Shown: positions 16,540-60,912 of the stretch, piece by piece | How positions within the stretch are numbered: the first letter of the stretch is position 1 | Layout: the number at the start of each line of letters is the position of its first letter | DNA from: Branchiostoma floridae | Lineage: Eukaryota > Chordata > Leptocardii > Amphioxiformes > Branchiostomatidae | Direction of reading: 5' to 3' | Length of the DNA stretch: 64,000 nt | Assembly (NCBI RefSeq): GCF_000003815.2 | Contig: NC_049981.1 | Coordinates: forward strand, 9,995,482-10,059,481 | Program-made: the position numbers and the translations under genes | Notes under the pieces: generated by a model | What the model was told of the DNA's origin: nothing | The model's input: the letters and a program-made list of their open reading frames with translations, nothing else | The model's database searches: none

Positions 16540-16734
16540 TCAGTTGCATTCTGAAATAATGCATGAAAAATAACAATTATGTGTTGTTGTTTTTTCAGAC
16601 GGGCACTACGGTAACGGTAGAGCTGTAGTCTGATCGGCTCTTGTCTGTAAAGACAACTCCCCAGAAAACCTTCGCTCCATCACACACCAAGGTCTCAGTT
16701 GACACCGAACAGTCCCAGATCTCGGCAATCCAAA

Positions 16735-18204
16735 ATGCGATCCACGTCACTGATTCGGCGCTTTTTGGTGATGGTCCCGATATGTCTGGCCACCATTTTC
16801 GTGTTTTATTTCACAAATGCCCTGATGGATAGTAGCAGGGATTCTAGGGATTTCGAACATAAATGTGACTGTAGCAAACATGATATTCCAAGCAAACAAG
16901 ATGGCCACCGTGAGATACAAGATATCCCTAACAAACAAGATATCCCTAACAGACAAGATGTCCCTAAAATCCAAGATATTCCCAAGAAACAAGTTGATCT
17001 ACCTAACGCAGGTAATAACCCGAACGTTGATAAGATCCCTGAGGTTCCCGAACAGACAGATCCAGCGTGTGCCCCCGAACCCAAGGACAACCCGAACGTC
17101 AACCCCCTCTCAAAGTTCTACTCAGTATGGTACGACCCACCTACCCAAGTCGCCAAGCGAGACAAGGTGACGATTGTCATCTGGACAGAGCTGTGGGACA
17201 ACCAGATGAGGAAGGTTCTACCAAAGGGAAAGGGTGCAAAATGCCTCAGTATGCCGAACTGTATCTTTTCCAAGTTTCGGAACGAAATTGAAGAAGCTGA
17301 CGCCGTTCTCTTTGAAGTCAGCAACTTGCAGAAGAACTACAACGCGTCAGTGTTGCCGAAATTTCGTCACCCTCGCCAGCATTGGGTATGGTACCACACA
17401 GAGTGCCCGGGGTTCCCGTCTATAAACTTTGAGACGTACAGGAGTGTTTTTAACTGGACCATCACCTACAGAGCAGACTCCGACTCGTCTGGTGCGTGGG
17501 GATCTCTACACAGAACCTACCAGAGGCTCAAAGTCGAAGGAGTCGATCCCAACAAGGACTACACAAAGGGAAAGAGGAAGCTAGCAGTTTGGTTCATCAG
17601 TAAGTGCAACACTCAAGCCAATCGCGTCGCTTACGCTACTGAACTGGTCAAGCACATGCACGTGGATGTCTTCGGAAGATGTGGAAAGACTGTCTGCGCC
17701 AAGTGGAACGTTACCTGCATGCCTGACATCATTACACAGTACAAGTTCTACCTCGCCTTCGAGAACATGAAGTGTAAGGAATACCTCACCGAGAAGTTCT
17801 GGAGGAACGCCCTGGCAAACGACGTCATTCCAGTCGTTCTAGGAGCCAACAGATCCGACTACGAGAGGCTGGCACCACCGCACTCCTACATCCACGTGGA
17901 CGACTTCAAGTCACCCAAGGAACTCGCAAACTACTTAATGTTACTTGATAAAGATAAGGACCAATATAACGCATACTTTAAGTGGAAGACCCACCCACCT
18001 AAGGACATACCTTTAGAGGAAGGTATGTGGTGTAATATGTGTAGGGAGCTTCTGAATAGGTGTCCGACTAAGAGGAAACTTTACACGAATTTGAGGGGTT
18101 GGTTCGAAGGCGAGAACAAGTCGATGTGCGATCCGATGGAAGATGTGAAATTTCAGGAGCTACAGTTTGAGAACGATCGCTTCAAAGTTGCTTCATATGC
18201 ATGA
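16735..18204 (+). CDS. Alpha-1,3-fucosyltransferase (glycosyltransferase family 10), type II Golgi membrane protein
   Basis: Single coding exon, 489 residues from the ATG at 16735; the frame is open 5' of this Met but has no earlier ATG. Seen: short basic tail MRSTSLIRR, one signal-anchor segment FLVMVPICLATIFVFYF (residues 10-26), and a stem with about six degenerate IPNKQD-like hexapeptides (residues about 50-85). The catalytic domain carries the GT10 blocks HWVWYHTECPG, FNWTITYRADSD, the donor-site block AFENMKCKEYLTEKFWRNAL followed by NDVIPVVLG, and a C-terminal CNMC pair. Several N-glycosylation sequons are present. It would transfer L-fucose from GDP-fucose to N-acetylglucosamine-containing glycans in the Golgi. 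Acceptor specificity cannot be read, and orthology to a particular FUT is unclear because invertebrate GT10 genes expanded independently. A 5' splice acceptor (TTTTTTCAG) lies near 16599, so an upstream 5' UTR exon is likely. Confidence 0.93.
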   Translation: MRSTSLIRRFLVMVPICLATIFVFYFTNALMDSSRDSRDFEHKCDCSKHDIPSKQDGHREIQDIPNKQDIPNRQDVPKIQDIPKKQVDLPNAGNNPNVDKIPEVPEQTDPACAPEPKDNPNVNPLSKFYSVWYDPPTQVAKRDKVTIVIWTELWDNQMRKVLPKGKGAKCLSMPNCIFSKFRNEIEEADAVLFEVSNLQKNYNASVLPKFRHPRQHWVWYHTECPGFPSINFETYRSVFNWTITYRADSDSSGAWGSLHRTYQRLKVEGVDPNKDYTKGKRKLAVWFISKCNTQANRVAYATELVKHMHVDVFGRCGKTVCAKWNVTCMPDIITQYKFYLAFENMKCKEYLTEKFWRNALANDVIPVVLGANRSDYERLAPPHSYIHVDDFKSPKELANYLMLLDKDKDQYNAYFKWKTHPPKDIPLEEGMWCNMCRELLNRCPTKRKLYTNLRGWFEGENKSMCDPMEDVKFQELQFENDRFKVASYA

Positions 18205-24879: not shown

Positions 24880-27306
24880 ATGGACAGGTAAGATGATCTA
24901 ATTACGATTCTCTTGGCTTATGAAATGATATACATGTAATGTATGTGGAATGGTGGGCTATGTGTTACGAAAGCAAGAAGCCGTGATCACGAATACTGCT
25001 ATCTACATGTATATTAACCTAAGATTGCGATGTTCGTAAATTCCTTAATCGCAAAAGTTTCGTATCGGTACGCATTGGCACCAAATGCAGTAAGGGCACT
25101 TTCATGGGGTTATAGTTTTGAACAACGCCTATAGTTTTAAACTGTATAGCACTTAAGTCTCGTGTACTAGCAAAGCCGGTGTGTAACGCCGAAAGGCACT
25201 GCTAAGTTGTGTACTGATAAAACAGTATAGATAAAGGTTTGAATAGAAGTTTTCATCATAAAAGCGGCTTAAAATGCACCAGAAATAGTGTTGTAATAAG
25301 TAGTCTATCGGGGACAAGCTCGAAAAATAAAGAATTGCATTTGTGCCATATTTTATCACGGACGTTATATAACGCCCTGGTTGTATGTAGTCTGTTTGCA
25401 TGACTTGAGTCATACGGTGGATCAACAACTTGGAAAAAATGCAGTGGATCTCAGATTTCAATCACGTTTTCAAGTTAAAGAAGATCATCACGGAAAAAAT
25501 GAAAATAGAAACAACATATTTTCGCGGCAAGAGTATGTTAATCAAAATACTGTAAAACGTGATTTTTTGCGCTGGTTCTATTTTCACGGTTTCCGCTTCA
25601 CCGTATCTGGCTGTAGCACTGCGTCGCGAATTAAAAACTTCCGTGCTTCAGAATTAAATAACCACGAACATAAGGCCATTTACGGCACTACTATTTACAT
25701 GTGCACTAAATTTATTGTGTTTCGTGTCCTCAGCTTTACAGATATCACTCCTGAGAATGGCCAGCACGTGTTGGTGACCGGCGGGGCAGGGTACGTCGGC
25801 TCCACGCTCGTGCCCATCCTGCTACAGGAGGGCTACCACGTCACGGTGTTCGACATCTTCAACTTCGGGGTGTTCCCGCTGCTGCCCGTGGCCGGCCACC
25901 CCAGACTCAGGCTCATGGAGGGGAGCATCACGGACGAAGTCAAGCTGGCGGACGCCATGGCTGATGTGGACGCCATCGTTCACCTGGCCGCCATTGTGGG
26001 ATTCCCTGCCTGCGCGGCCCACCCGGAGAAGGCCATCAAAATCAACAAGGTAAGACAACCACATTTGCTTGTCTGTGAACAATTATGTGTCAGACATTGT
26101 CAGACGTTGTCAGAGATTTTGTTGTCGGAAAATTGGACAGACAATAAGGATAGCACTTTCTCTTTTGTTGTGTTGTCCCACAGAAACAAAAAGTTAACAC
26201 TGTCAGACAAGCGATTGAGATTTTTCTGCTGATCAAACTTTGTTATATTAGAGAAAAGATCCAAAAGCTGTTGTCCAGACCATGTCAATGACAGACTTGC
26301 TACATAAGAAATCGTTTTGCTTGTCTGCGAATAGTTGCGACGTATATGTCAGATCACACAAGCCATTGAGCTGTTGATAAAACTTTGTTGACTTCCAAGA
26401 AGCTTTTGAAGGTTTTAGCCCTACGGCATGTCATTGGCAAAAACTTATACCATGCTACTGTTGTGTCTTAAATCATAAAAGGTCACAGTGAACGTTGTCC
26501 GCCTGATGAATCAACACAAGTGTATTATTTACTCGCCCACAAGTGACTGATATTTTTATGTTCTTAAAACTGTGTTGACTTGCCAAAAGCTTTTGAAAGC
26601 TGTTGCCTCAGGGCATGTCATTGACAGAAGTTACATCTCGCTATTGTGCTTTAAATTACAGGAGGGCACCGAGAACATTGTCCGCCTGCTGAAACCACAC
26701 CAGCGCATTGTGTACTCATCCACCGGGTCATGCTACGGCGCGGTGGAGGGGATCTGCACCGAGGACACGCCCATCAGCCCGCTGACGCTCTACGGGGAGA
26801 CCAAGGCAGCTGGGGAGAAGGCCGTCATGGGCGCCGGAGGAGTGGCGCTCCGCCTGGCGACAGTCTTCGGGGCCTCCCCTCGGCTGCGTCTCGACCTGCT
26901 CGTCAACGACCTGACCTACAAGGCGCTGAGCGGACACCACTTCGCGCTCTACCAAGCCTCCTTCCGCCGTACCTTCCTGCACATCAAAGACGCCGCCATG
27001 GCCTTCGCCTTCGTCCTTAGGAACTACGAAAAGATGTCCGGCCAGGCCTATAACGTTGGTTCTGAAACCATGAACCTGACAAAGGCTGAGCTGGCCAAAA
27101 AGATCCAGGAGTTCATTCCTGAGTGTGTGATCACCTTGTCAGATGAGGGTGAGGATAAGGATAAGCGAGATTATGAAGTGTCCTATGCTAAGCTCCGCTC
27201 GCTAGGCTACAATACAACCCTCACTGTGGATGATGGGATCCGCGAGCTTGTGAAGGTCATGCCCTTCCTGTCAGACAGGGAGCTCCGCACATGTTCCAAT
27301 GTTTAG
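24880..27306 (+). CDS. Extended short-chain dehydrogenase/reductase, NAD-dependent sugar epimerase/dehydratase type
   Basis: Three coding exons: 24880-24887 (ATG GAC AG, followed by GTAAGA), 25734-26049 and 26662-27306; phases agree and give 322 residues. Seen: N-terminal Rossmann motif [10 protein letters not shown], acidic residue after beta-2 (VFDIFNFG), HLAAIVG, catalytic SSTGSCYG serine and YGETK tyrosine/lysine, [18 protein letters not shown] and the YNVGSE block of nucleotide-sugar epimerases. It probably acts on a UDP-, GDP- or dTDP-hexose, but the substrate cannot be told. I recognise no close human counterpart; the sequence looks nearer to bacterial NAD-dependent epimerases than to GALE, TGDS or UXS1. 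The coding exons are clearly more GC-rich than the surrounding DNA. The 8-base first exon is inferred from phase and donor quality; the other exons are secure. Confidence 0.88.
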
Positions 27307-27899: not shown

Positions 27900-30874
27900 T
27901 TCAATACCTGTCTGTGAGTTGTTTATGTCATTATTAGAGGAGTTAGGGAGTGGCCTATAACGTAGTGTGTAATTACGTGATAATCTCCAGGCATACTTAA
28001 GGATTGACTCAGTGTTTTGAAAACATCTCGTGGCAGTACGTATTTCTTATAGTGCATCCTTAAAACTTCCACGGAAAAGGTAAAGATTTTTTTTTACAAA
28101 TATACTACAAAATGTGGTACTGCTTTGTTGTATTTTAGTCTATTTTTTCACGAGATATTCCCATTATAAATGGATAGTGCAAATTCAATTTAGAACGTAG
28201 CAACACAGTCAACATACCACTTGTAGTGAGATACCCCTTTAGATGTCAAATTTGATTGATGTCTCGAGTCAAAGGTGTGACTAGGCTATTGTTTCGTTCA
28301 ATTTCTAAGAAGGGAAGGAGAATCTACGTACTGGACATGTCTTATTCCTTGAGGCTGTTCTTAATCTATTTCTCTTCAAGATAAGACGTCATAAATCCAT
28401 CACCACGTAAGCCCCTAAAGCAATTCATTGTCTCTTTCGGAGAAAGCTCCATAATGTCTAAATCAACAAATTTCAACACTCGGGTATTTATTCGTGCAAA
28501 TCAAAGAAAGATACAACACAACTTGTGACTGTAATTGCATCTAAGTTCGCGAGTATTTAATTTCGCGGTAGGAGTGTTTGCAGTGGTTTTAAGTTCCCGA
28601 TTTAAGTCATATTGTATACTAGTAGTTAATAGAAACGCCAGCAAAAACTGAATCTTCTAATATCTAACCTAAATGGAAAGAAAAGAGTCAGACAAGGGAA
28701 AGAAAAGATTGTTAATACTATTCATTTGTCATTGGCAAAGACATACCCTAAGATCTACAACATGCAAATCATCTATTTCCGTGTCGTTCCATCTACAAAC
28801 TGCACTTATAGTCACTATCCGCAAGAGGAGCTTCCGCACTGCTAGCACGCTCTGTACAACGGATTGGGTACCTCTGAATTAGCTCGCGACGGCCAGCAAT
28901 GTACCTAAGAATATTCTTCAGTTATAAACACAATTCTCACCTAACTGACGTTTTTAAACACATTCTTTGGATTAATTGGACGAAAGGGAATTCATTGAGA
29001 ACACACTTCTATGTACCATTCTTTCAAAATGATTTCCATTTTAATGAAGGGTGTGCCAACTTTGTGAGATAGTGCCTTGTAGATCAAAAGCTTTAGACGT
29101 GTTCTGAAGTGTGACTGGTTCTAAATAAGCGCCTAGCTTATGTGCTTATACATATCTATCAATACTAGCAATAACACTACGTGCCCGATAAGGGGTTGCT
29201 TTTGGCTTTTGACGCTTGAGACAGCGATAAGCAGACTTATGTAGGATTAATGGCTATATAATTATTGGCTCGACCATTTCTAGACGTACCTGGACATAAT
29301 CTCGTAATAGATTATTATAATTAAAAACACCTGGAGTCAGATATGGAGGACTCACTCCTCCACAAATAATGGGATTTACCGAATATCGTCAAATACATCC
29401 AGTAAATCTATAAACTAGTACTGTAAATGCATTTAAGTTCGCGGAGATTTAATTTCGCGGTAGCACCATGCACTGTAGTCTCTTAATACCATAGAAAAAT
29501 GTTCGCGGTGTTTTTAAATTCGCGGTGAAGCATTAAACCACCGCAAAAGTTTCTGCATTTACAGTATACTAGTACCGTGTCACATTTGGCGAAAATCGAT
29601 CGGACGACGATTCTGCGGCAATCACTTATGATAATAACTTTATTGCAGAACATCTTTACAAGGTACAAAGTATGGCTTATATGTGACAAGGACGGTTGTC
29701 AGGTAAAAATACGCGCAACCCTCTGTCGATCTTAGATATGACCGATCTTCCATCGATACGCCCGAAGATCGTGGATAATGTGACAGGGGTGTTACCAGAT
29801 TTACCCTGTCATTTGTAATATGGGACATGTCAACCGTCAAATGTCATACATATGACCTTCCAACAGTAATTCGAAAGCTGTGCCACTATCTTATATCTAT
29901 TTCTAAGCCTTTAAGTAAGCATTGTGTGAAGAAAGGACACCATTCGACCTTCTCACAAGTAAAAGGGATATGTTTTTCATATAGTTGTTATATGTTACAT
30001 ATCACAAAAACAAGTAATTTTCTATCTAGAGTTCTAACTAGCAAGATATATATTTCTCGATATTCAATCCATTGATAATAGGCAGATGTAAGATAATGAT
30101 TGTGGATTCTATTCGACCCCAAAACAACAATGATACCGACAACATAATGATTGTCTTTGCAAAGTTATTAAAAACACCACTTATCATTATGGAAGATAAC
30201 CAGAGATGAAATTTGCTACCATTATCTGGCAAATGCACAAAATGACAGGTATTTTAGATAATGACGGGTCTTTGGGCACCAGTTGTCTCTTTCAGTGCAG
30301 TCAGGTGTATGAAAATACTCTGTTCTGCAAGCACTGGATATCCTCACAATGGTCAGACGTATAATTAAGATTTTCCGCTCTATTTCCATACCATTATATA
30401 GCAGTAACCACCCATTGGGAAAGTTGCCTCTCAGGTGGCACTATCATACCGTAAAACTGCACAGAAGGAACACGGCATATAAGACTTTTAGAATAATCCG
30501 AGGTTTTACAAAGTCTTTTTATATGCGCGCGCGCGTGTGTGTGTGTACTTGTGTGAACGTGTATATATGTGTGTGTGTATGTGTAGGTGTGTGTCCGTGT
30601 GTGAATGTGCATGTGCGAACGTGTGTGTAGTACTACGTTCTTGCGTGTGTGTGCTCGCGTGCTGTGCGTTTTTGATGCCAGTTCTAATATTTTGACACAC
30701 AGGCTGGATCCCGTTATTTGTCAAAGCGCCCCCTCCCGCCGATAATCACAGTTGTATACTTTCAAACGGGTTGCGAGCACTGACTCTTCCTCATGGTGCA
30801 AAGACGACCCCTACATTTTTTTCTTGATATTGCAAGTTTATCTCAATGAATCACCGGAGACACTATGTGCTAAC
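27900..30874. other. Intergenic region without genes, left of the large transposon
   Basis: No exon is recognised. It contains a half copy (about 28525-28615) and a full copy (29419-29566) of a TTCGCGG-type MITE, a TTTATTGCAG-type 3'-tail fragment near 29639, and a GT-rich microsatellite with interruptions at about 30530-30660. Confidence 0.55.
29419..29566. mobile_element. TTCGCGG-type MITE, 148 bp
   Basis: Inverted ends TACTGTAAATGCA and TGCATTTACAGTA. Inside, TTAAGTTCGCGG and AATTTCGCGGTAG on one side face CGCGGTG and ACCACCGCAAAAG on the other. A longer relative is at 58371-58579 and a 5' half near 28525. No coding capacity. Confidence 0.7.
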
Positions 30875-30952
30875 CATAGCTCTTTTCACGGATACCGGGT
30901 GACCCTTGACCCAGGACGCCGCGCGGTGCATTATGGTCGCCCTGGGGGACAA
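30875..30952 (+). repeat. Left terminal inverted repeat of the 12-kb transposon
   Basis: 78 bases identical, in inverse orientation, to 42784-42861. Contains GGGTGACCCTTGACCCAGG and GTGCATTATGGTCGCC. The outermost CAT pairs with the right-end ATG, so a few outer bases are target sequence. Confidence 0.95.
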
Positions 30953-31008
30953 CTGCTTTCGCGCGAAACTTGAAAATTTCCTTCAGTCATAGCGCAAATC
31001 GGACGACA

Positions 31009-33812
31009 ATGGGGAAATCGGACCGATGTGTGGTTTTTGGGTGTAACAACGACAGGCGCTATCCAGACAGGTATTTATTAGCTTAAATATTCAATATTCC
31101 AGTCATCGGTACCGGTACAAAACATTTTTTTCCCGTTGGACAGGTTACGAAAAACCCGGAAGTGGGCCGGTCGATCGGATTTTGGACCGATGAGAAAATT
31201 AACAGATATCGGCAGGGGTTTACATGTTTTGGCGTTTTACCGGTTCAAGAAAAAACAAGAGCGAAGTAGAGTAGAGCTTATATTAATTTCTACCAAGTTT
31301 CTACAGTCAAACTTACGGAGACAGTTAGCATAATTTGTTTACATGCCGGAAGACAGGATACGCCAACGAAAGTCGGATATTCCACCAAAACACTGTGAAA
31401 CAGTCCTTTATAGCGAAATAGATCATTGTTTTGAGTATCACTTATTTACGAGTTTTCACAGATAATAAGGTCCTGGTTCAGGTCTATACCTGTAATGAAT
31501 CTTCTGTACCAATATCGATTTTTCTCATTAGAATGTACAATATTCTTTACTGGGCAATCACTATTTTTTATAGCTGTCTTCTGTTTTTTCAACACATGTA
31601 ATGCAGCAGAACATTAGGGTTCCTAAAGCTAACCCTGCTACCTGTATCATGTATTTTGAAAGAAATAAAGCATCATGATTAAGAAATAAAAATGTTTTTG
31701 AACTGTTTCTTTCTTTGTTCATTTATTGCCCACGATTATGTTGATAATTATGACAGTTTTTATCTAATATATGAAATAGCATCTTCAGTTCAGTTCAGTT
31801 CAGATCATCCTCAAGGAGGTGACACTGGTGTCTCCACTCGTTTCATCATAACAATATATAAAGATTATTAAGATAAAATAAATATTTCCTTTGTAGAATG
31901 GTTGTGAAGGAACACGTGAGCCTTCTACAATTCTTCAAGTGCCCAACAGAGCACAGGAAGACATGGGCCCGCCTTCTTCACAGAGAAGGCCTTGAAATGC
32001 TCTCGGAAAACCAGAAAGTGTGCAGTAACCACTTTGTGATTGGGAGGCCATCAGTGCAGTACCCACACCCAGCCCTCTACTTGCGCGGATATCATAGCAC
32101 ACCAACCCAAAACCTCTCAGTCATGGACTCCATGAGGGGGCCAATCACTGAGTCTGACGACACCTACATGCACACCAGAAGAGGTATTATTTTAGCATAA
32201 AGTGCAAGTAGAAAAAATAAATTGTTGAAAGTACTAAAAAAGACCATGATGAGCAAAGAAATAAATTGGGTGACAATGATGTTTGTTTGTTTGTGTTTGT
32301 TTATTTGCATATAATGTAAATGCTAATATGATTCATGCATCTAGATAGTGTTTCAATGCAATGATTTGAGATTTGCAGTGACAACAGATTCCTGTCTACA
32401 TCCCTGAAGTAATTCTAGTTTGATTTTGAAAAATTTCGATTTCAACTGATCTCTTGTTGATGATTATATCATTCTCGTTTTGAGATATTTTCATTCCTAT
32501 TCAAGGATCAGTGAAACGCAAGCTGCCAATGGAGAGAGTACAAAAACAAAAAAAAGGCACAAGACAAGATGATCCTGAACCCTACAATGACTTGGGCCGA
32601 CGTGATAACACTGAAAATATTTCAGAACATGCTAGCACTGAATCTGAACAGAGTTGTTGTTACAGTAATGATCATTCCTATGCTGCGTCTAAGGAAGAGG
32701 CACAATCTCCAGTTCCTGATTCCTGTGAGTGTGTCAAGACTTGCAAATTATGCAAGCGAGCCTATAAGGACCTGCAACACAGAAATCAGGAACTCGAGAC
32801 CGAAGTGAAGGAACTAAAAGAGGAACTAAAAACTGTCAAGGAAAGTGCAAAAAACTCTAAGCAAGTCAGATATGACATTGAACAAATAAAGGACTCAGAT
32901 ACCAAAATGTCACTGCACACAGGTCTAACATATGCAATCTTCATGTGGGTATTCAACATAGTTGCATCCAAGTTACCAAACCTACAATATCACAAGGGTT
33001 CATCCTCTGCCACACCCAAGAGTTATCAGACGACAAACAAACAAAAACCAGGCCCAAAGCGTTTTTTGACTCCTCAAAATGAACTGTTAATGGTTCTCAT
33101 GAAGTTGAGACAAAACTTTGTAGAAGACTTCCTGGCCCATCTTTTCTGCTGTAGTACTACTTTAGTTTCACAAATTTTGTCAACTTGGTTACCCTTGCTA
33201 GCTCTAGAATTGTCTCCATTAATCTACTGGCCCACACAGCATGAACTCAAGCTTTACTATCCGGATTGCTTCAAAAAGTACAAAAATGTCAGAGCAATTA
33301 TAGATTGCACGGAAATTGAGGTTCAAAGGCCATCACTTGCCAAAGCAAATGGACAGATTTTTTCAAACTACAAAAATAGGCCAACCTTAAAAGTATTGAT
33401 AGCCTGTACACCTGCTGGTACAGTGTCCTTTGTGTCCAAAAGCGCAGGCGGAAAGATGAGTGACAAGGAAATTGTTTCCAGGTCGAATTTAGTTGAGGGT
33501 TTTGATTTTGGTGACACCCTCCTTGCTGACAGGGGTTTCAATATACAAGACTTACTGCTGGATAAGGGGGTTACTTTAGTTATACCTCCCTTTCTAAAGA
33601 AGAAGAACCAGTTTGCAGAATCAGAGAACAGAAGAACCAAGAGTGTAGCTAATGCTAGGATACATATAGAGAGAGTTATTGGTAGGATCAAACATTTCAA
33701 GGTGATGAAGGGGCCAATTCCCCTCAATATGAGAGATCTATTTGATAATGTAGTTATTGTAGTCTGTGCACTAACAAACTTACAACCAAAGATTGTTCCC
33801 CTGAAATGCTAA
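31009..33812 (+). CDS. THAP-domain DDE transposase
   Basis: Three exons, 31009-31070, 31897-32183 and 32506-33812; phases agree, 551 residues. Seen: N-terminal THAP zinc finger (CVVFGC, later TWARLLHREG and VCSNHF) spanning exons 1-2, about residues 7-90; a small cysteine cluster CECVKTCKLC near residue 190; a coiled coil (ELETEVKELKEELKTVKES) at about 210-230; a helix-turn-helix-like block; and a DDE nuclease domain with Asp383 (IIDCTEIE), Asp458 (LLADRGF) and Glu505 (HIERVIGRIK). This matches the IS5/Harbinger-like DDE_Tnp_4 fold. The THAP finger is expected to bind the terminal repeats, and the DDE triad to cut and join DNA. The start lies 57 bases inside the left repeat and there are no interruptions, so the gene looks intact. 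It faces the second transposon gene tail to tail. Confidence 0.94.
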
Positions 33813-34530
33813 TGTACCTGTAGAAAATATTTGAACGAAACATTGTAGAGTCGATTCCGAGTCACCTTGAGGGTTTTGAAATAATATTTGTAGTGAGTTT
33901 GAACTATTCTAAGTAAACAGAAATAATGTATTTGATGTTAGAAATGTTTCTAACATGTATGAACACTATAGAAAATATTTAGAACATTAAACAGAAGTTA
34001 TAAATAGTTCTAAACAGTTACTTATCACAGTTAGAATATTATTAAGATTTCCAAAATGTTGGAACAAAAGGCAAGAAATACCCTCTTAGTAATGTGGAAT
34101 TGACTCTATATGCTTCATTTGAATGAAATATTCTATATCCTCTCTATGTATTTCTCAATTGGTATGCACAATTCAAATTGTGGCTTGTCAGTACAGCCAC
34201 ACATAATATACTGTATGCCCACTTTGATAGCTTGTACCACAACATTCTAAGTGTGTACCATATTCCAGTAGTTTATGTAATGTTGACATTCTTACAAAGT
34301 TACGATGGAAAAAAAAAACATGTTAAAATGTTTACAAACATACAATTGAATGAAACAATGTATATACGCTTGAGCAGAGTTATTTTAACTCTCAATACTA
34401 CAATATGTATAGCAGGACACATGCAGCAAACAGAAACAATGTACATGTATATCTACCATGTATGGTAAAGTGGGTTAATACAGCTATTCTACTGGAAATG
34501 TTAACTATGTATAAACAATGACAAGAATTT

Positions 34531-37500
34531 CTAGTCGTTGCTCATACATAGTTTACATTTCCATTTCAGCTTCTTTTTCTTCAGAAATGTCTCCTTTCCT
34601 GTGACATCAACACATATCCAATGAAACCAATCGTGGCAATAATCACAATAAATACTCATTTCTTCAAATCTTTCAGGTTCATCCTTACATTCTTTCTGAC
34701 ACACTTTGCAGATATACTCTGCTGCAGAAGATGTTTGGTCAAGTGTAATCACAGCAATGTTGGGCATGACTGTTTTCTTTACATTTTCATGAACAAGCTC
34801 TTCAACAATTACTTTCTGGAAAACAAGCAATGACTTGGAAATTACCTCCTCCAAGAACTCAGGATCAAGTCAAATCTCTTCCCAATGAAAGTTATTGTAA
34901 GCACAGGCTGTCTGGAGGGCAAAGTATCCACTGTCAGCCTGCAGACACAGTAGCTGTGCCTGTACTTGGTAATAATAGGAATGACACGCATTAAGTCTTT
35001 TCTTTCCTGTTGACGTTATGTCCAGACAGGTATCAGGCAATTCTGCAAACTTGTTAATTGACAGGTGTCTATTGGTGTAGGGGTTTTTGACTTCAAGTGG
35101 CCTGACTCCACAACATGTACATGTAATAACTGCATCAGGAGATGCTGATAAAAAAGGGTATTCAGCACACAGTACTGTGCCACAAGCATCTGCCCTCAGC
35201 TTCTTATGATGTCGCCGATTCAGCTTGACAAACTTGTCTACAGCAGATTTTTCATTGTACTGTCCCCAGTATATTGCTGGTGCATATGGACGAGGACCAT
35301 AATCCATAACTTTCTTCAGGAATGATGTGTTTTGTTCACTTACCGTTTCATCTGAACGAACCTTCCTTACTGCTTCGTACAAATTACTGGCAGTTATTCT
35401 CCCTTGTCTATATTTGAACCAACTATCTGATTGTGTCTGGTCTTTGGTGGTCTCTCTGATGATGTTAACTACTTCTTCTGATACAGGTGTTGTTGCTAGT
35501 TGGAACAGTTCTTGAGTACTGCTAGCCTCCTGTGCAATTTCTGGTAAAGTTTTTGGAAGATCTGGCATACAAATATATTCTGCATTGGTAACAACCTCTT
35601 CATTAACAACATGTTCAACATCGGGCATCTCAGACTCATTGCTGCCAAACTGTACATAAGCCAATATCCCTGCACTACCATTTGTTGCCACCCTGAGTCC
35701 CTCTAAGTCCAGGTCCTGGAGAGTCTTGTCCTGTCTGTCCTCAACTGCCCTGGGATCATTGTTGTATCTTGTACGTTTTGTGTGGTTGCTGTCTTCTTCC
35801 AGTCCACAATCACCTGAACCATAAGTAATTTTCCATCAGCAAAAACTAAAAGAAGATTAGAGTTTACCAGAGAAATGTTCTGAAGTAAGACTATTGTTGC
35901 AGCCATAACTATTTGGTGTTTTTATCACCACTGCAACAAGTCATTCTATTCATTACATATATATGTACTGTGATAACAATAACTACTGTGTAGTAAGGAT
36001 CAGCCATAATGCATCATAAAACAATACTAGTACAGGTTTTATACAATAGAATTATAGTAATTCATACAATACTTTATGTAACATTTCAATTTCCACAGGT
36101 TATAAAAGCAGTATTAGCTTTAAACTGTACCTTTGACTTTTCGGATGGTTATGTCCTTTACGAAGTCTGGCTTATGTGGCTTCTTCGATGGTGCATGCCA
36201 GGCTTGGACTTTCTCCGTCACTGCTTTGTTATCACCTCTGGCAACTGTTTCAATAACAGTGTGACACAGCGCTGCAATGTGCTTGCAGGTCCCTTGAATA
36301 CTAAAATTGAAAACAATCACAAATAGATTAGTCGAACCTGGTCATTGTACTGTGCTACTTAACTGAAGTAAGACTATTGTAACTTGTAATGTAAGACAAC
36401 AAAAGGACTGATCAATGATAAACTTGTCAAGGTTTAGATTTCTAATAACACAATGCGGAAAAAAAGTAGTATTACATACCCTCCAGGACAGGAACAGTAG
36501 CCATCAACAATGATGTTTCTTCTCTTGTGTACAATTATCCATGTGTCGTATGGAGGCAGTGAGACACTTGTCTCCCTGACAGCTTTGCAGCGGATGAAAC
36601 AGTACGGGCTGTCCACGTGTACTCCATGGACTTGCAGATTGCACACGTGCCCAGAGAGGTGCAGACTTTTTCCGTCTCGCAGCGCCTCCTTTCCCGCTGT
36701 TTTGATGTTCATATCCTTGTTTTCTAAAATTGATATAGTGAGATACAGATATCAACACATAGCTGGTACTTAAAATAAGTTAAATTCTGTCCTTCCCTAC
36801 AGATGTACTTTTCACATAAACTGCATGCCTGCGGTGCATTGAAAAATAATTAACCCTGTAAATGGCATTTTCAGCAGCCAGCAGTACGACAGAGCAGATG
36901 CTAGACTATGTATACTACAGTGTATGGCACTTCTGCAACCTTTTAAAACCACCGTGAACACTCCACTTTCCCACTAGCAAGAAATTAAATCCCCACTATT
37001 ATAATTTATATGCACCTTGCTGGATTACACAAAACGTTTGTCAAGCACACCAACAATTACAAAATTAACATCATCATGCCATTGAAAAGCCTATGGTGCA
37101 TTTACAACCTGTCAATATTAAAGATAAATAGTAATATCTTGTGGACACTTACCCAAATTATTAAGAACTCAACATATATGCATGAACTGCAGATGCTGAA
37201 AAATATATGGACAAAATGAACAGTCAGAACTTTGATGAACAGTTAGCACATGTAACACATTGTTATAGTTAGTAGTACTAGGTCAAACCAAGTCAAACCA
37301 AACAACGATGTAACAGGAATGTACTGAGAAAAAAAACAACAACAATAGATTGTGACGATTTTCTGCGTGACTCACTTCGCTCAAAGTAGTTTTCAACTCC
37401 AACTTGAAGTAGATCTGGAAGACCTGAGCCGTCAGACTCCCACCCTGCTGCCAAAGACGAAGAAGAAGGATTTGGTAACCTTATAAGGCCCCCATCCAAG

Positions 37501-37748
37501 ATCAGTTTTTGCTCGATGTATCGGGTGTGGCCGGGGTCACTGATTCCCGATCCCTTTGGTAGAGACAAAAGCTGCGCCTTCTTGCAGAGACGAATAAGTT
37601 CATGTTTGTTTTTGTCACTTGATGGGACTTCTCGGTTCGACAGAAATAATTTTAACTCCTGTATATTCCACTTATCGAACTCAAGGTCGCCGTCGCACGT
37701 GTTACTGCCCAGATTTTGCACATGGGGGCGACCCTCACGGCCGGCCAT
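34531..37748 (-). CDS. SAP-SWIM-YqaJ exonuclease-PHD protein of the transposon, with one in-frame TGA
   Basis: Four exons, 37748-37376, 36723-36480, 36300-36131 and 35813-34531; phases agree and the whole reads 690 codons. Seen: SAP DNA-binding motif at about residues 25-60 (ELKLFLSNREVPSSDKNK); SWIM zinc finger split over exons 2-3 (CSC...CKH, about 199-212); and a YqaJ-type nuclease at about 393-530 with conserved GRITASN, SPDA, EVKNP and YYYQVQAQ blocks, that is, the Asp, Glu-x-Lys and Gln of the active site. A C4HC3 PHD finger follows at about 625-685 (CKVC, CDYC, HWIC, CKLC). Codon 577 is TGA (34872-34870), directly followed by C. If it terminates, the product is a 576-residue SAP-SWIM-nuclease without the PHD finger. 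The role in transposition is unknown; end processing is a guess. Domain calls are firm. Confidence 0.88.
36895..37005. repeat. Degenerate TTCGCGG-type MITE fragment in a transposon intron
   Basis: Blocks AAAACCACCGTGAACA, CTTTCCC and GAAATTAAATCCCC match the right half of the MITE at 58371-58579. The intron lies between exons 1 and 2 of the SAP-SWIM-YqaJ gene. Confidence 0.45.
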
Positions 37749-38224
37749 ATTATATGTAAAGACTATCACCGTATTCCAGCCAACTTTTAAAACGTCGTGA
37801 GGATCTCTTGATGAGTTATATGGAGTTAAACTCTTCTTCCAGACGAGTTTGAAGACCTCGTGAAGATCACTTCGTGAAAACGGAATTTCTGGCGTCAAAA
37901 CTTGAACACATTTCAGGGTTTGAGGATCTGTTTCCGAGCCCGAATACAGGAAATACCATCACGGGTCTATATGGGGTTTTTGCAAGGCCCATATTTTTAT
38001 TTCCGGTCACGCATTTGACTTCGCAGTTTGAGTTGACGGAACAGCGTTCAAAAGATGTTACCAGTAATACAGACATAATGCTCTACTCTTACAAATTATT
38101 TTGATAGTTTTTTTAGATATAACTTGCACATGGGTCTGTATTAACCGGGTATGGCATCAACTGGGAACACATAGTTGTGTGGTCATTGTATATAAACAAG
38201 ATAATACCATGTTGAATATTAGTA

Positions 38225-38960
38225 CTTTGAAGGTAAGACAGGTGTGTTGTCTTTGACTTATGACCAGGTAAAACCAGATGAGGTACATTACAGGAAAGAC
38301 ATGTGTGTTTTCTTTGAATAATGACCAGGTAAGACCAGATGAGGTACATAACAGATAAGACAGGTGTGTTTTCTTTGACTACAGGCCAGGTATGACCAGA
38401 TGAGATACATTACAGGTAAGACAGGTGTGTTTTCTTTGAGTAATGACCAGGTATGACCAGATGAGGTAGATTACAGGTAAGGCTGGTGTGTTGTCTTTGA
38501 ATAATGACCAGGTATGACCAGGTGAGGTACATTACAGGTAAGGCAGGTGTGTTGTCTTTGACTACAGGCCAGGTATGACCAGATGAGGTACATTACAGGT
38601 GAGACAGGTGTGTTGTCTTTGACTTATGACCAGGTATGACCAGATGAGGTACATTACAGGTAAGACAGGTGTGTTTTCTTTGAATAATGACCAGGTAAGA
38701 CCTGATAAGGTACATTATAGGTAAGGCAGGTGTGTTGTCTTTTAATAATGACTAGGTATGATCAGGTGTGGTACATTACAGGTAAGACAGGTGTATTTTC
38801 TTTACAAATTACTAGGTATGACCAGATGAGGTACATTAGAGGTACTACAGGTGTGCTTTCTTTGACTACAGGCCAGGTAAAACCATATGAGGTACATTAG
38901 AGGCAAGACAGGTATATTTTCTTTGCCTACAGAAGAGGTATGACCAAATGAGATACAGTA
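38225..38960. repeat. Minisatellite array A (about 60-bp unit) inside the transposon
   Basis: About 12 imperfect units, each containing AGGTACATTACAGGTAAG, CAGGTGTGTTTTCTTTGA and TGACCAGGTA. Units differ by scattered substitutions. It is the reverse complement of the neighbouring array B. Confidence 0.93.
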
Positions 38961-38974
38961 CAATGTACAGGAAA

Positions 38975-39870
38975 GTACATAACCTGGTGCCTTCTGGTCA
39001 ATCTTGAAAGAAAACATACCTGCCTTATCTGTAATGTACCTTACCTGGTGCCTTCTGGTCAATCTTGAAAGAAAACATACCTGCCTTATCTGTAATGTAC
39101 CTTACCTGGTGCCTTATAGTCAGTATTCAAAGAAAACATACCTGCCTTATCTGTAATGTACCTTACCTGGTGCCTTATAGTCAGTATTCAAAGAAAACAT
39201 ACCTGCCTTATCTGTAATGTACCTTACCTGGTGCCTTATAGTCAGTATTCAAAGAAAACATACCTGCCTTATCTGTAATGTACCTTACCTGGTGCCTTAT
39301 AGTCAGTATTCAAAGAAAACATACCTGCCTTATCTGTAATGTACCTTACCTGGTGCCTTATAGTCAGTATTCAAAGAAAACATACCTGCCTTATCTGTAA
39401 TGTACCTTACCTGGTGCCTTATAGTCAGTATTCAAAGAAAACACACCTGCCTTATCTGTAATGTACCTTACCTGGTGCCTTATAGTCAGTATTCAAAGAA
39501 AACACACCTGCCTTATCTGTAATGTACCTTACCTGGTGCCTTATAGTCAGTATTCAAAGAAAACATACCTGCCTTATCTGTAATGTACCTTACCTGGTGC
39601 CTTATAGTCAGTATTCAAAGAAAACACACCTGCCTTATCTGTAATGTACCTTACCTGGTGCCTTATGGTTAATTTTCAAAGAAAACACACTTGTCTTAGC
39701 TGTAATGTACCTTACCTGGTGTCTTGTGGTCAATCTTTGAAGAAAATACACCTGTCTTACCTGTAATGTACATTACCTGTTGTCTCATCAGGTCAATCTT
39801 TAACGAAAACACACTTGTCTTACCTGTAATGTACCTTACATGATTATGATCAATCTTCAAAGAAAACAAA
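38975..39870. repeat. Minisatellite array B (61-bp unit), inverted relative to array A
   Basis: About 14-15 units, each with TCAAAGAAAACATACCTGCC, TTATCTGTAATGTACC and TTACCTGGTGCC. The central units are almost identical and the edge units diverged. Reverse-complemented, the unit aligns with that of array A, so A and B together form a large imperfect palindrome centred near 38965. Confidence 0.93.
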
Positions 39871-42783
39871 CACATTTCACTTCCCTTACTTTTGAAGGAA
39901 ACTATATCTAACATGTAATGTACCTCATCTTGTTTACCTGGCCCTAGTCCGAGTACACGAGTACAGACCTGCTTTACCATGTACGGAACTCTCACATCCC
40001 TCCCGGCATCATCAGATAGTTCTACTTTTCACAATCATCGCACCACTTAGTACTTTGGGAGCAATTCATTTTGGAATATCAAACAGACCAATTTATACCA
40101 AACCTTTAACTTATGTCATTGGAGAGAGTCACTCGGCAAGGTTTTCTGTCATTTTTCTTCCTGGCCATAGGAGAGACGCGACTTTAAAACTTTGTAATCT
40201 AAGGTATGACTCGTAAAGACTTGTGTTTGACACAAAATGTTTTAATATACATCGTTTTGAAAGAGTACCCTTGATGAATCTTGGACAAGTGCCGGAGGAA
40301 AGTCTCACTCCCCCTGTCAAATCCATTCCTGTATCCTGTATCTGTCATCACAGTGTAGTGAGCGGGAAAGACCGAACCTTTACAAAGTGATATAAGTAGG
40401 CAGTTTCATATGGTCACATTATTCTGGTAAGGAGTATTACTTTGTGGGTAATACTCTCCGTTGTTTGAAGGAGAATTTGTTTTATCCGAAGTACATAGAC
40501 AGGCCGTTGATCACCGGATATTACCAAACCTTTAATCAATCTAAGATTTATATTATCGCAAACTGTGGATGCGCCCTGTACACGCGCCTTTTTTCCGTCA
40601 TTAACACTGGAGACATGCGACCTTCAAAACGCTTGCAAAGGTCTTAGTTATACTTAAGGAGAACGCGCGTTTCACCCAGTGAGTTATAGCATGTATTGTT
40701 TTTCAAAGTTTCATTAATTGATTCATTCCGATGTAATATTTCAACCACGTGATTGGAAAATTTCACGATGGCTACGCGTTCTCTGTCCGACTGAAAAAGC
40801 GAACTGTTATATTCATTGGTTCACACTCAGATGGTGTTACTAAACCATAAGGTATGTTACAGCAAATATGCACCCTTTACACATGTATCATTTGGGTCTA
40901 TTTCACCCGAAAGACTTTGCCTTTAGCTATATGACAAAAGATCCTTGATTCACACAGACTGGTGAGTTTTCATCTGTATCGTTGGAAGAAATACCCTTCA
41001 TATCTCTTGCAGTTTCACGTAGCTCGTTGGAAAGGAGTATTGTGATATTTCAACTTGTATCATTTGAGATCATTTGAAAGATACAGTCTACTGAAAACTG
41101 TTAAGGGTCCTGATTCAGGGCTGTGTTGTTGAAAAGACCTATTGGGCCTCCACAAATTCCTCTTCTGCGTCTGTACCAGTGTTTTGTGTTCGGGAAATTA
41201 ATTTAAAACGGATACATTCCGCAGTTGTATTATTTGAAAGTTACTTGGCAGGAAGGATACCTAAGAGTCTCGTGGCATATACAGGCGCGTTCCAACCACT
41301 CACGGCTTCGGCAGATTGAGGCTACATGACTGTATATGGTGTCAATTTAAAAGGCTTCTCTTGATCAGGAAGTGAATTCCCTTCCTAAATCGTGAATAGA
41401 TTGGTTCCTAAGCCGTAGGATTGTGTGCTGGTCCATCTCTGCTGATTACAGCTCTAATCTTCCTTTACTTATAGAGCGTACAGTCCATTCTTTTGTCTTC
41501 AATCTACCATAGGCAAAAGTGCATGTATTGTTGGTTCAAAGAACACTGTGCATTCGCCTTTAAATCAATACGGCTACACCGTATCTTGAACCCGGATAGC
41601 CTATAATCAATCTTTAATATATACGTATACAATTTAACATATATGACTTTTTGTACATAAATGTATTAAAAGCCTACAAAAACACTCCCTCCACACCAGA
41701 CTCTTGTGCTCAGGTCGTGCCACTTCCAATCTGCAACGTTACTTTTGAAGGGAAAATCCGGGCATGTACACTTTGATTGAAGTAAGAATTTTCATGGTGT
41801 TCCTTCATCACAACTTAAAAGAAAGCACTGTCCCATCGCAGCATTGTATATCCTGTGTGACTAATTTTTCGTTTCAAATTTCAGGCGCAACATTGCACAC
41901 CGTGATTGCGCCTCTCGCCAACAAGAAAAAAAAATTCAAGGCACTCTCCGGGCCACGCGGCGCAGTTTTAACACATAACGTTGTAGTTTTTTGTAGTAGT
42001 GGTCTAAGGGGGAGAAAATAATACCTTCAGAGTGCAAACATGAAAATCAGTTTTGACGCGGTTTTCACAAGACTAATTAATTTTCCATCCTTAGTGAGCT
42101 CGAGTGCCTTTTAGTATGTGATTAAGCAAAACGGAAAGTGCACCAAGGGATCCAAGGGGGTGTCGTATTAATCAAGTTTATTGCAAATTCTTGTCCGTGT
42201 GCTAATTGCAGGTAATATAGATTCAAACAGTGTAAAATACAATAACACAAGTGTCTACTCTTGGTCTAAAACTAATAAAAGCTAACTCTAGATCCTGGGT
42301 TATTGATATACAAAACAATCTTTCGTCCTAAATGCCCAAGTACGTGCAAATAAGCAAGAGAGTCTGCCCGCCGATCTACAATCAGTGCTCCGAGTAGTAA
42401 AAGCCCGAAAGACCCGGCAACTAAATTAAACTCCCCGGGGCAAGGAGGTTATCGAGCTCTCCCCGGAGCGCTAAGTTAGATTGGCGGGCAGGCTGCACTA
42501 GTGAGCCACCGAAGAAACAGCCTGCCGCCCCTGGATATGGATATATATCTGGTACCAGGATAACTTGTTATTAATATTAAACTTTTATTTTTTTTATAGC
42601 CCCTTTGCTGCTTTTTGTTGCTAAATGCCCTGAAAATGTGACCCGGAAACTGATAGACCTCGTTCAATTACCGTATGCCTCAAAACCCCCATATAGAACC
42701 ATGTCCGCCTGTGAGGGTCGCCCCCGTGTACACGATCTTTACTGCCCGACGCCGCCATCTTCTCTCTGCTCTGGGTGATATTC
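39871..42783. other. Non-coding right arm of the transposon
   Basis: No gene is recognised. Weak repeated blocks such as ACCAAACCTTTAA (40098 and 40525) suggest old tandem duplication between about 40080 and 41300. A TTTATTGCAAATTCTTG tail-like stretch lies at 42178, and a GC-rich part near 42420-42510. At 42693-42740 a short plus-strand frame resembles the first codons of the SAP-SWIM-YqaJ gene. Confidence 0.5.
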
Positions 42784-42861
42784 TTGTCCCCCAGGGCGAC
42801 CATAATGCACCGCGCGGCGTCCTGGGTCAAGGGTCACCCGGTATCCGTGAAAAGAGCTATG
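42784..42861 (-). repeat. Right terminal inverted repeat of the 12-kb transposon
   Basis: Exact reverse complement of 30875-30952 over 78 bases. Similarity stops abruptly on the inner side (GACAAGAATATC here against GACAACTGCTTT at the left end). Confidence 0.95.
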
Positions 42862-43064
42862 TACATTGTATTTATGTACTGAATTTTCCTCAAAGGTAAT
42901 TGAGTAAAATTGACGTCATAGTGACGTAAGTTCAATCACTCTAAATGCTGCAACATTGCGCGTGACGTCACAGCCTCTGAGCTTGTTGGTTGGTTGAAAC
43001 TACAAGAGTGAAACATATACATTTAAACATGTAAATATATTACATGACAACTTCCAGATTTAAC

Positions 43065-43200
43065 CTTCCAACATGGCGGACAACAGTGACGTCATTGTCA
43101 CGTGATTACAAACACTACTTCAAACACTCCACCTTGCTACCTTGGGAGTAACAACGTAAATATTGGCAATGTAGGATTATCAATAATAAATGGAGTCCTA
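43065..43200. repeat. Diverged repeat related to 8430-8525
   Basis: Shares TCCAACATGGCGGACAA, GTCACGTGA and AACGTAAATATTGG-like words with 8430-8525 in the opposite order. The stretch 42862-43460 has no gene. Confidence 0.4.
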
Positions 43201-43464
43201 TCAAATCACGTAGTGAAGGTTCTCTTGTATACATAAGGGAAATACGCAGTCTAGGCAACCTTTGTCGAGTTTTCGCATTTGTTGAGGCTTTGCACGCAAT
43301 GGGTCAGGTGCCTATGTGCTAACCTGGAATCTAGACATTTTTCCAGGGCCTACACGAGTCAGCCCTTTGGCACCAGGCCCTAGATACCTACAAAGAAATT
43401 TTGCCGCAGCGCCCGTAAAAGACCCATTGGTTATAACTTGCATTCAGACAGACATGCAAGATTA

Positions 43465-44704
43465 CCGGTGTGACAGCGTTCTCGCCCCCCCGTGATCTCG
43501 CCCCCCCGGGGGCGAAAGCACTAGCGATCTCGCCCCCCCCCGGGGCGAAAGCACTAGCGATCTCGCCCTCCCCAGTTAGTGATCTCGCCCCCCTACCTCG
43601 CCCCCCTTTAGCGATTTCGCCCCCCCCCCCAAAAAAAAACGGGTTTACATGATATTTTAGAAGTTGATTGGTATAAATCACACAATGCAGTTTCAGAATG
43701 ATATAAGTACACGAGTTTGATACATAACTCCATCCATAGTATCAATATTAACGTAAGTACATGGCAATAAGATAATTGAACTTGTTTCAGACAAGGAGGG
43801 TTGGGTCCCTTGTATTCCCTTTATTGCATGTACCTGAGTCTCGACATGAGATATATTTAATTGTATTCACCTGTCCTCAAGCAACCTATATATCTCCAAT
43901 ATGAAGTCTCTATTATGAATTGACCACAAAAGAACTATGTCATGTCTTTATTGATTATGCAAATAAGGTATTCATTAGAATAATGCACATTTTGGTGTAT
44001 GCACCTGGCCAAGGGGTATCTTCACCTTCAATATGACTGTTTTTCTAGTATTTAGAAACTGGTACGTTATATGCACCTACCCTATGGATATCTTCACCTC
44101 CAATATGACTGTTTTTCTACTATTTAGGAACTGGTGTTTTACCCGTGTTTCTTAAGACTGGTACTTTACCAGTTTTTTGTAGCATTTAGCAACAGGTATA
44201 TGAACTTGTGCGTAGATAGTGTTTATAATGAGAAACTATTATTCAATTGTGTTTTTCTTAGTGCTTTGGAAATGTTTTCTGCACAAGAAAGAAAATACTG
44301 TGACAAATTGAAAACATATAGCTGACGTATTCTGTACCATAGACGGTGTTGATTTATACGTTCACAATAGCATTGTTTTCTATGCCACCTCTGCCATGTC
44401 AGCTGCAAAAAAAATGTCCTTTCAATGTAGTGTTTGCACCGAACAAGGTATGACATCTTACGGTAACAAGGTGCCATATAGGTACCAGGTAACACACCAA
44501 CTATGTTACTCCCAGGTGCAGTATAGTACCAGGTAGCGCACCTAATATGTAGTAACCAACCTGCTTTTAAGACCTCTCCGAGGAATACTAGTAATGTCCG
44601 GGGGGGGGGCGAAAACGCTAAAGGGGGGCGAAAACGCTAGTGATCTCGCCCCCCGGGGGGGCGAGATCGCTGGGGGGGGGGGGGCGAGATCGCTGTCACA
44701 CCGG
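43465..44704. mobile_element. 1.24-kb non-autonomous TIR element with C/G-tract subterminal repeats
   Basis: Ends are CCGGTGTGACAGCG and its exact complement CGCTGTCACACCGG, flanked by TA on both sides. Inside each end lie several iterations of (C)n followed by GCGATCTCG or GCGAAAGCACTAG: plus orientation at 43475-43630 and minus orientation at 44598-44690. The interior (43640-44590) is AT-rich with a tandem duplication near 44000-44120 (TATCTTCACCT.CAATATGACTGTTTTTCTA twice, gapped) and no ORF. TA duplication is typical of Tc1/mariner-type mobilisation, but the superfamily is unproven. Confidence 0.8.
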
Positions 44705-58600: not shown

Positions 58601-60912
58601 TAGAACTTTGAAATTTCTGCTAGAAACCTTTTCCACTCATGGACAGTGTTGTCTTCGTTATTACCTAAATTCATTTTCAGGTACAGTTACAGTAGTTTAG
58701 TTAAGTACGTAGAGTTATCAATAATTAAGTGCAAATACGTTTTGCCAACCACCTGTAAGTTACACAAGCATGTAGTAAAGAAACATAAAGCATTGGAAAA
58801 GGTGTTCTTAAATGTGATGTTGGGAAACGTACGTAGGCGATGCTGAGAGTGAATTTCCCGCGGGTGTCCAGCGACGTTTCCTTCTTCCCGTTCTCCACGT
58901 TGAAGATGTTGACTTTCCCACCGTGGCTGCCGGACGCGATGAACCGCGAATCGGGGGAGAAGGCAACGGTCCACGCATCAACTATAACCCGAACACGTCA
59001 TGTTAATGAAGAAATAATATCCCTCATGGTTCTGAAAATCACACATTCTTTACTGTACTTGACTATTAACTTCTAAAAATCTAAATGTGTCTTACTTTTT
59101 TATGCAAAAAGATTTGCTACATAATATTATATCAATAATAATAAAAATACCCATCTTCCATAGATTCTTTTCTGCAAAGTTTTATTGTTGTGAGGTAAGA
59201 AATTGGCAGTAAAATGTAGGTGTTTGACAAGTATGTGTCAAGAAAGAATTATAATAGTGTTATAAAGCCTTCATGGTAACTTTATAAAGCCTTCATGGAT
59301 TTTCTTCAGAAGGATGCAAACAATGCTACCCAAGTTATCAAATGTGGCAAGACTTGGCTTAATATTAGTATGTGCATAATCATATTATGACTCAGTCAAA
59401 ACTATGTATACTTTACCTGGCCCAGCATCCATGCTCCTCATCTGTTTCCCTGTTTCAATATCCCATAACCTTATATGGGCATCAAGGGAGCTGGAGGCAA
59501 CCACTGGTAACAAGGTCAAGGGTCATGCAAAATAGACAGATTACCTGATGTAAAATGTATAACAAGTGATTGTTTGCAATTACAATGCATGTTATAAAGT
59601 CTTAATTAAAAAGAAGGAGTCAAACGGTAGATCTAGGTAATTAGCAATTGTAGAAAGGATACTGGTGCCTTCCTGGTTCATGTCCACTGACACCACACCC
59701 AGCTGGTGTCCCTCAAGGGTCCATCTTAGCTCCAACTTTTCATCAACCCTGCCCAAGGCAAAGGAACATTATCTTAAGTTAGCTGAATGAATCCCACTGC
59801 TTTATGAAAGGATGATTAGTGCCCCCTAGTGACAAGTTTTGGTACTGCATGAAACAAAGATTTCTGAGGCTAAAATTTGAAACCTACCATTTCCAGACCT
59901 TCACGCTATCGTCTACAGATCCTGTGACAATGTTGTCCACACCATCTGTGTCCGACCGTGCCCACGCACAGCTCCAGATCGCGTCATCGTGGGCTGAAAA
60001 AGTCAAGGAAATGTTTGGTACACATGTATGTATTTGATCTGTGACTGTATTGACTGCTACCAAAATTGAATAAAACGTGGCTATCACAATAATCTAACCT
60101 TTACACATCTGACTCCAGACAGTACTGGGCCAGCAGTAATGACACTACTGGGGGTACAGATACTTACCCAGTATCAAAACAAGAACAAGAACAAAAAGAA
60201 CTATTGGGGGTACGGACAGTACAGGGTGTATGGACAGTATAGGGTGTATGGACACTACAGGGGGTACGGACACTACTGGGGGTACGGACACTACTGGCCC
60301 ATGGGGGTACGGACACTACTGGGGGTAAGAACACTACTGGGGGTACGGACACTACTGGGGGTACGGACACTACTGGGGGTACGGACACTACTGGGGGTAC
60401 GGACACTACTGGGGGTACGGACACTACTGGGGGTACGGACACTACTGGGGGTACGGACACTACTGGGGGTACGGACACTACTGGGGGTACGGACACTACT
60501 GGGAGTAAGAACACTACTGGGCATACGGCATTTACATATTAACATGTCTGACGTTTATTCCTTAGAAAGTTCAGTTGCGGCCCAGACCCAAACTTCGACC
60601 TGAATGAGCTTGACAAGCACCCACCTGGTTACTCCTAGTGGAAAGAACAAATATACTTACCATTCTCCTGTTTAAACAGGATGCTATACTGTTTGGGAAA
60701 AAAAGAAAAGAAAAATATAGTTAATAAAATAGTAAGCTCAAGCTACTTGTCTTTTAGATCACTGCCACTCACTCACACCATACCATTAAATGAAAATAAA
60801 ATCCATAACAAAAGCAAATAAGTCTAAATTCTTCTAACAAAACCTAAGGTACACTGCATTCTAGGAATTCTAGAAATAAATATATAAGCATGTTCACCGT
60901 TCCAACTATATA

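Follow-up and report, generated by a model that had tools for sequence, protein, structure and literature searches.

The window analysed here is a stretch of 64,000 nucleotides of the genome of the Florida lancelet, Branchiostoma floridae, located on contig C3 among the 431 contigs (513,431,437 bases) in which the genome searches were carried out. Its central feature is a DNA transposon of the ISL2EU type (30878..42858), 11,981 bp long as present, with a transposase gene on the plus strand, a convergent nuclease gene on the minus strand, and a foreign transposon of 5,028 bp nested between the ends (37711..42738). Once this nested element and one copy of the 9-bp duplication bordering it are subtracted, the outer element measures about 6,944 bp. 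Elsewhere in the window, Pfam recognizes pieces of host genes, namely a sulfatase (9590-10039), a fucosyltransferase of family 10 (16651-18201) and an NAD-dependent epimerase (25300-26229 and 26551-27303). Close to the right end of the outer element, at 43474-43628, is a short minisatellite that is rich in C and contains a TAGCGATCTCGCCCCCC motif, and an 18-bp minisatellite of 17.5 copies, open in two frames, is found at 60200-60521. Rfam returned no match at its gathering thresholds over 30000-44000.

The transposase gene is predicted, as is the nuclease gene, from a reading of splice sites. Its first exon (31009..31070, plus strand) encodes the start of a THAP finger that is completed by the second (31897..32183, plus strand), while the third (32506..33812, plus strand) carries the HTH_Tnp_4 and DDE_Tnp_4 domains and runs to the stop codon. 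The spliced protein of 551 amino acids is uninterrupted, and Pfam detects in it DDE_Tnp_4 (8e-42), HTH_Tnp_4 (8.4e-13) and, across the junction of the first two exons, THAP (9.4e-8), all above their cut-offs and with a DDE_Tnp_4 match spanning the entire profile (1-158 of 158), which bears out the open THAP-DDE transposase described in the first-pass annotation of this DNA. Within intron 1, positions 31109-31436 (up to about 31510 in two alignments) resemble a high-copy interspersed repeat about 430-445 bp long, with 67-71% identity over 336-420 bp; in the six loci compared, the copies of this repeat are 92-97% identical to each other.

The nuclease gene is distributed over four exons on the minus strand. 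Its first codons (42748..42758, start at 42758), for which both start and frame were established via a sister copy presented below, are severed by the nested element from the remainder of exon 1 (37376..37710), where a SAP-like domain is visible by eye and Pfam proposes only a sub-threshold Ish1 match. Exon 2 (36480..36723) and exon 3 (36131..36300) encode respectively the start and the rest of a SWIM finger (21.7 bits for a cut-off of 19.6). Exon 4 (34531..35813) comprises a YqaJ domain (Pfam 8e-15, above cut-off, profile positions 2-146 of 150), an in-frame TGA (34870-34872), and then, in the same frame, a PHD finger (8.3e-7). When the YqaJ part was compared with PDB sequences, six weak matches emerged (best E value 0.012), four of them to lambda-type exonucleases.

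The first-pass annotation had suggested a genome search for other copies, and such a search, using the left 426 bases of the element as query and scoring 40 of 2,161 candidates, revealed one further locus with the same end, at C4:33544179, with a matching inverted end at C4:33550115. The two copies align over three blocks of the window (30873-34144, 35135-37710 and 42739-42861), and the C4 copy is devoid of window positions 34145-35136 (992 bp, in the final part of the nuclease gene) and 37711-42738 (5,028 bp). This comparison defines the limits of the outer element. A repeat search of 30000-44000 recovered 30875-30952 and 42784-42861 as inverted repeats complementary at 78 of 78 positions, exactly as first noticed, but the element's own repeat is shorter: the window and C4 copies have in common ATAGCTC... 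at one end and ...GAGCTATG at the other, the sequence beyond differs, and the left AT is preceded by C in the window and by T in C4. The element therefore reads AGCTC...GAGCT (30878-42858), with terminal inverted repeats of 75 bp (30878..30952, plus strand, and 42784..42858, minus strand) and an AT on each side (30876..30877 and 42859..42860). The 78-bp repeat, read in this way, consists of these 75 bp, the AT duplication and a chance C/G pair. The duplicated dinucleotide had been given as AT or TA; AT is read directly at both junctions of the window copy and is also found in the C4 copy, the contexts being C-AT-G and T-AT-G, respectively, whereas TA can be discarded, as the window shows CA and TG at the corresponding positions.

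The sister copy offers an independent view of the target site. Its flanks (locus L009, about C4:33543930-33550364) belong to a young high-copy repeat, most listed copies of which are 97-99% identical to them. When both flanks were joined and used as a query (500 bases, junction at 250), 42 match rows were obtained from 40 scored candidates, 39 of which, by our own count of the match table, cross the junction with 97-100% identity; the C4 locus itself is among the matches via its right flank only. The eight empty loci that were fetched all read CTTCACT-AT-GGTGTT, with AT present once, and these paralogous empty sites show that the sister copy duplicated a 2-bp AT. Through the sister copy and its empty sites, the check proposed initially came out in favor of the first interpretation, and the assignment to an ISL2EU-type element with a 2-bp duplication stands.

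Is the length of nearly 12 kb, then, a property of the transposon itself? The locus had first been described as a complete element of about 12 kb and a very large intact member of its group, and this description has to be abandoned. The 5,028 bp that are absent from the sister copy are bordered in the window by two copies of the 9-bp sequence TTACTGCCC (37702..37710 on the left and 42739..42747 on the right), in a place where the C4 copy harbors a single TTGCTGCCC. Such a configuration could also arise if the segment had belonged from the outset to a genuinely large transposon and had been lost from the sister by deletion between short direct repeats, since a deletion between the bordering 9-bp repeats would leave one copy, and the sister indeed carries another internal deletion, of 992 bp. 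This scenario is nevertheless highly improbable, because the segment is present at unrelated sites with its own ends and with different 9-bp duplications in all three copies fetched, and because the nuclease frame of the sister is continuous without the segment (MAASGSNTCDGD... across the point concerned), whereas in the window the segment cuts exon 1. That the segment might serve the transposon as an extended regulatory or structural region was considered too, and was rejected given that its independent copies have separate 9-bp duplications.

These independent copies were found by querying the genome with the nested element's leftmost 520 bp, which gave 19 match rows, the window and 18 others (66-96% identity), some of the latter being pieces of one copy. 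Four copies were examined, in the window and at loci L054, L055 and L056. The copy at L054 measures 6,328 bp and lies between two copies of TTCTTCGTC, that at L055 measures 5,029 bp and is flanked by TCGACGTGA, and that at L056, whose left end has diverged, is flanked by TTTACATGC, so that a perfect 9-bp duplication accompanies the four copies (scored by script for the window, L054 and L055, and by eye from the printed ends for L056). Outside the tandem arrays described hereafter, identity to the window copy reaches 94-98% for the L054 and L055 pieces and 79-92% for those of L056. No frame of at least 120 amino acids lies wholly within the window copy. Separate copies with duplications of their own, together with the lack of a long reading frame, identify the nested element as a dispersed transposon in its own right, apparently non-autonomous, which entered the outer element.

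The ends of this transposon form an imperfect inverted repeat in two blocks (31 of 38 and 20 of 23 positions). Its most conspicuous internal feature is a pair of 61-bp tandem arrays, which in the window occupy 38231..38962 (12.0 copies, plus strand) and 38975..39839 (14.1 copies, in the opposite orientation). Both arrays recur in inverted order in all four copies, with unit numbers that vary from one to another (12.0/14.1 in the window, 24.4/12.7 in L054, 16.0/11.2 in L055 and 15.5/11.4 in L056). Two smaller details may be mentioned: the 211 bp at 37749-37959, between two inverted left-side blocks that overlap on the right side, resemble a small further insertion, and 40 bp at 42175-42214 are about 90% identical to pieces of L041 and L042, which are loci of other transposons.

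In the nuclease gene, the nested element interrupts exon 1 in codons 5-7, after MAASGS, from where the frame enters the nested element. The second, convergent gene of YqaJ type described initially is present, but it is disrupted, being split by 5,028 bp and containing the in-frame TGA between YqaJ and PHD. This TGA might be taken for the natural end of the gene, a possibility that was rejected because 112 open codons and a PHD finger follow it, and because two relative loci read through. At these loci, L042 and L044 (L030 and L029 being pieces of those two), YqaJ continues into PHD in one open frame, so that the window TGA is most likely premature. As the deletion in the C4 copy removed the TGA stretch, this judgement relies on distant relatives rather than on a copy of the same subfamily; the two genes are divergent at L042 and L044, the PHD match of L041 is a separate piece, and the remaining relatives compared showed no PHD match.

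Could a modified nuclease still be made from the window copy? Where the nested element adjoins the remainder of exon 1, its inner edge contains an in-frame ATG (open reading frame 37293-37898); starting there and ending at the TGA, translation would give a SWIM-YqaJ protein that lacks PHD and has a different N-terminus. In accordance with this, the frame continues without a stop from the nested element into exon 1, and YqaJ is located entirely ahead of the TGA. Such a product seems rather improbable, however, as the loss of PHD would depart from L042 and L044, where YqaJ and PHD share one open frame, and as the same gene is damaged in the sister copy, through a 2-bp frameshift in exon 1 and the 992-bp loss at the gene end. 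Under the gene models used here, both copies retain their transposase and have a broken nuclease gene, through different lesions, a combination that fits a dispensable nuclease, a supply from another copy, or damage that occurred after the last move.

The relatives of the element in the same genome indicate which size is to be expected. Queried with the main exon of the transposase, the genome gave 97 matches, including the window and C4 copies at 100%, a decayed relative on C16 in pieces (55-68%) and, for the rest, mostly matches of 33-43%. The nuclease query gave 36 matches, half of which (18, counting window and C4) have a transposase match no more than 12 kb away, 15 in convergent and three in divergent orientation, a count for which 48 of the 97 transposase rows were used. 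Twelve relative loci were fetched, and in eight of them a pair of inverted repeats was taken by eye as the ends, 5,450-7,540 bp apart, with the reservation that L037 extends to the edge of the locus and that alternative pairs existed at L039 and L041; the other four displayed inverted matches of 14-19 bases only. AT was found on both sides at the two loci checked, L038 and L039, where the ends start with AGATCGTTTTCAC, and L041 is consistent with AT. With ends some 5.4-7.5 kb apart in these relatives, about 6.9 kb is an ordinary size in this genome, and the nested 5.0-kb transposon explains the size of nearly 12 kb. The outer element is thus of ordinary size and belongs to a known transposon group, and it owes its present length to a nested insertion. 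Taken together, the window almost certainly contains an ISL2EU-type cut-and-paste transposon of about 6.94 kb, and within its nuclease gene an unrelated 5,028-bp transposon without coding capacity.

The age of the element was approached through the differences between the two copies, which by our own tally amount to 21 substitutions in about 5.9 kb, or 0.35% (one column falling on the nested element was omitted, and a duplicated column counted once). On this divergence figure, both elements appear young. The C4 transposase is likewise open and differs from that of the window by one of 551 residues. The initial view of a young element, plausibly still able to produce transposase, is consequently retained. 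A less favorable reading, in which the outer element is a plain decayed relic devoid of mobility, derives some weight from the fact that only two close copies were found in the genome search and that the nuclease gene is broken in both. We consider it unlikely, although by no means negligible, in view of the perfect terminal repeats, identical in the sister copy, and of the transposase that is open in both copies with a single residue of difference, and of the 21 substitutions in about 5.9 kb.

The preferred history, that of a young transposon with a later passenger, can be summarized as follows. The 5,028-bp transposon entered codons 5-7 of the nuclease gene, generating the 9-bp duplication. 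By analogy with its group, the transposase of the outer element would bind the ends through its THAP finger, excise the element and reinsert it at an AT with a 2-nt stagger, in a cut-and-paste manner. The window copy presumably remains a source of transposase and has retained its two ends, and may on this account still move, provided that the nuclease is not required or is contributed by another copy; it is not a self-sufficient 12-kb element.

These results strike a false giant from the list, and illustrate that one transposon inside another can be mistaken for a single very large element. They also document the ISL2EU AT duplication cleanly, by way of paralogous empty sites. In addition, the occurrence of an ISL2EU-type element in Branchiostoma floridae bears on a small disagreement, as the relevant section of PMC9179366 mentions an earlier study, PMC4482050, that reported ISL2EU in amphioxus, and an analysis of its own that could not detect ISL2EU there.

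As far as the account of the PHIS superfamily in PMC4482050 goes, ISL2EU elements combine an AT duplication with a THAP-HTH-DDE transposase and a YqaJ gene. Their terminal repeats measure 6-259 bp and usually begin with GG, their target is A-AT-T, and the mean length of autonomous elements is about 4,840 bp. The window element resembles them by its THAP-HTH-DDE transposase, its YqaJ gene, its AT duplication and its repeats of 75 bp, within this range, and differs by its size of about 6.94 kb, by terminal repeats beginning with AG instead of the usual GG, and by the C-AT-G and T-AT-G contexts. That account defines the groups by target duplication, and A-AT-T is treated here as a site preference and not as a group definition. 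In the same account, potentially active elements are those with both genes intact, a requirement for activity and not for membership; in the window element, by contrast, the nuclease gene is interrupted by 5,028 bp of foreign sequence and carries a TGA.

The nested element is more difficult to place. According to the part of PMC6446971 dealing with these elements, Mutator-like duplications are 8-11 bp long, and Rehavkus associates a 9-bp duplication with a minisatellite; Mutator-like transposases are given there as not detected in Branchiostoma floridae. The likeness of the nested element to Mutator-like and Rehavkus elements is confined to the length of the duplication (9 bp in four of four copies) and the minisatellite. 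Its terminal repeats are short and imperfect (31 of 38), no transposase was seen in the window copy, and Rehavkus has one minisatellite before its 3' end, whereas the nested element has two inverted internal 61-bp arrays. A second point of comparison is the foldback element Tetris, which, as presented in the pertinent passages of PMC4079207, is similar in being apparently non-autonomous and in having tandem repeats in inverted arms, though with units of about 220 bp inside the terminal repeats, in contrast to the 61-bp units and internal arrays found here. Our tentative proposal, held with less than even confidence, is a foldback-like, non-autonomous family with 9-bp duplications and paired inverted 61-bp minisatellite arrays of varying unit number, which may be driven by a transposase of the Mutator/Rehavkus type.
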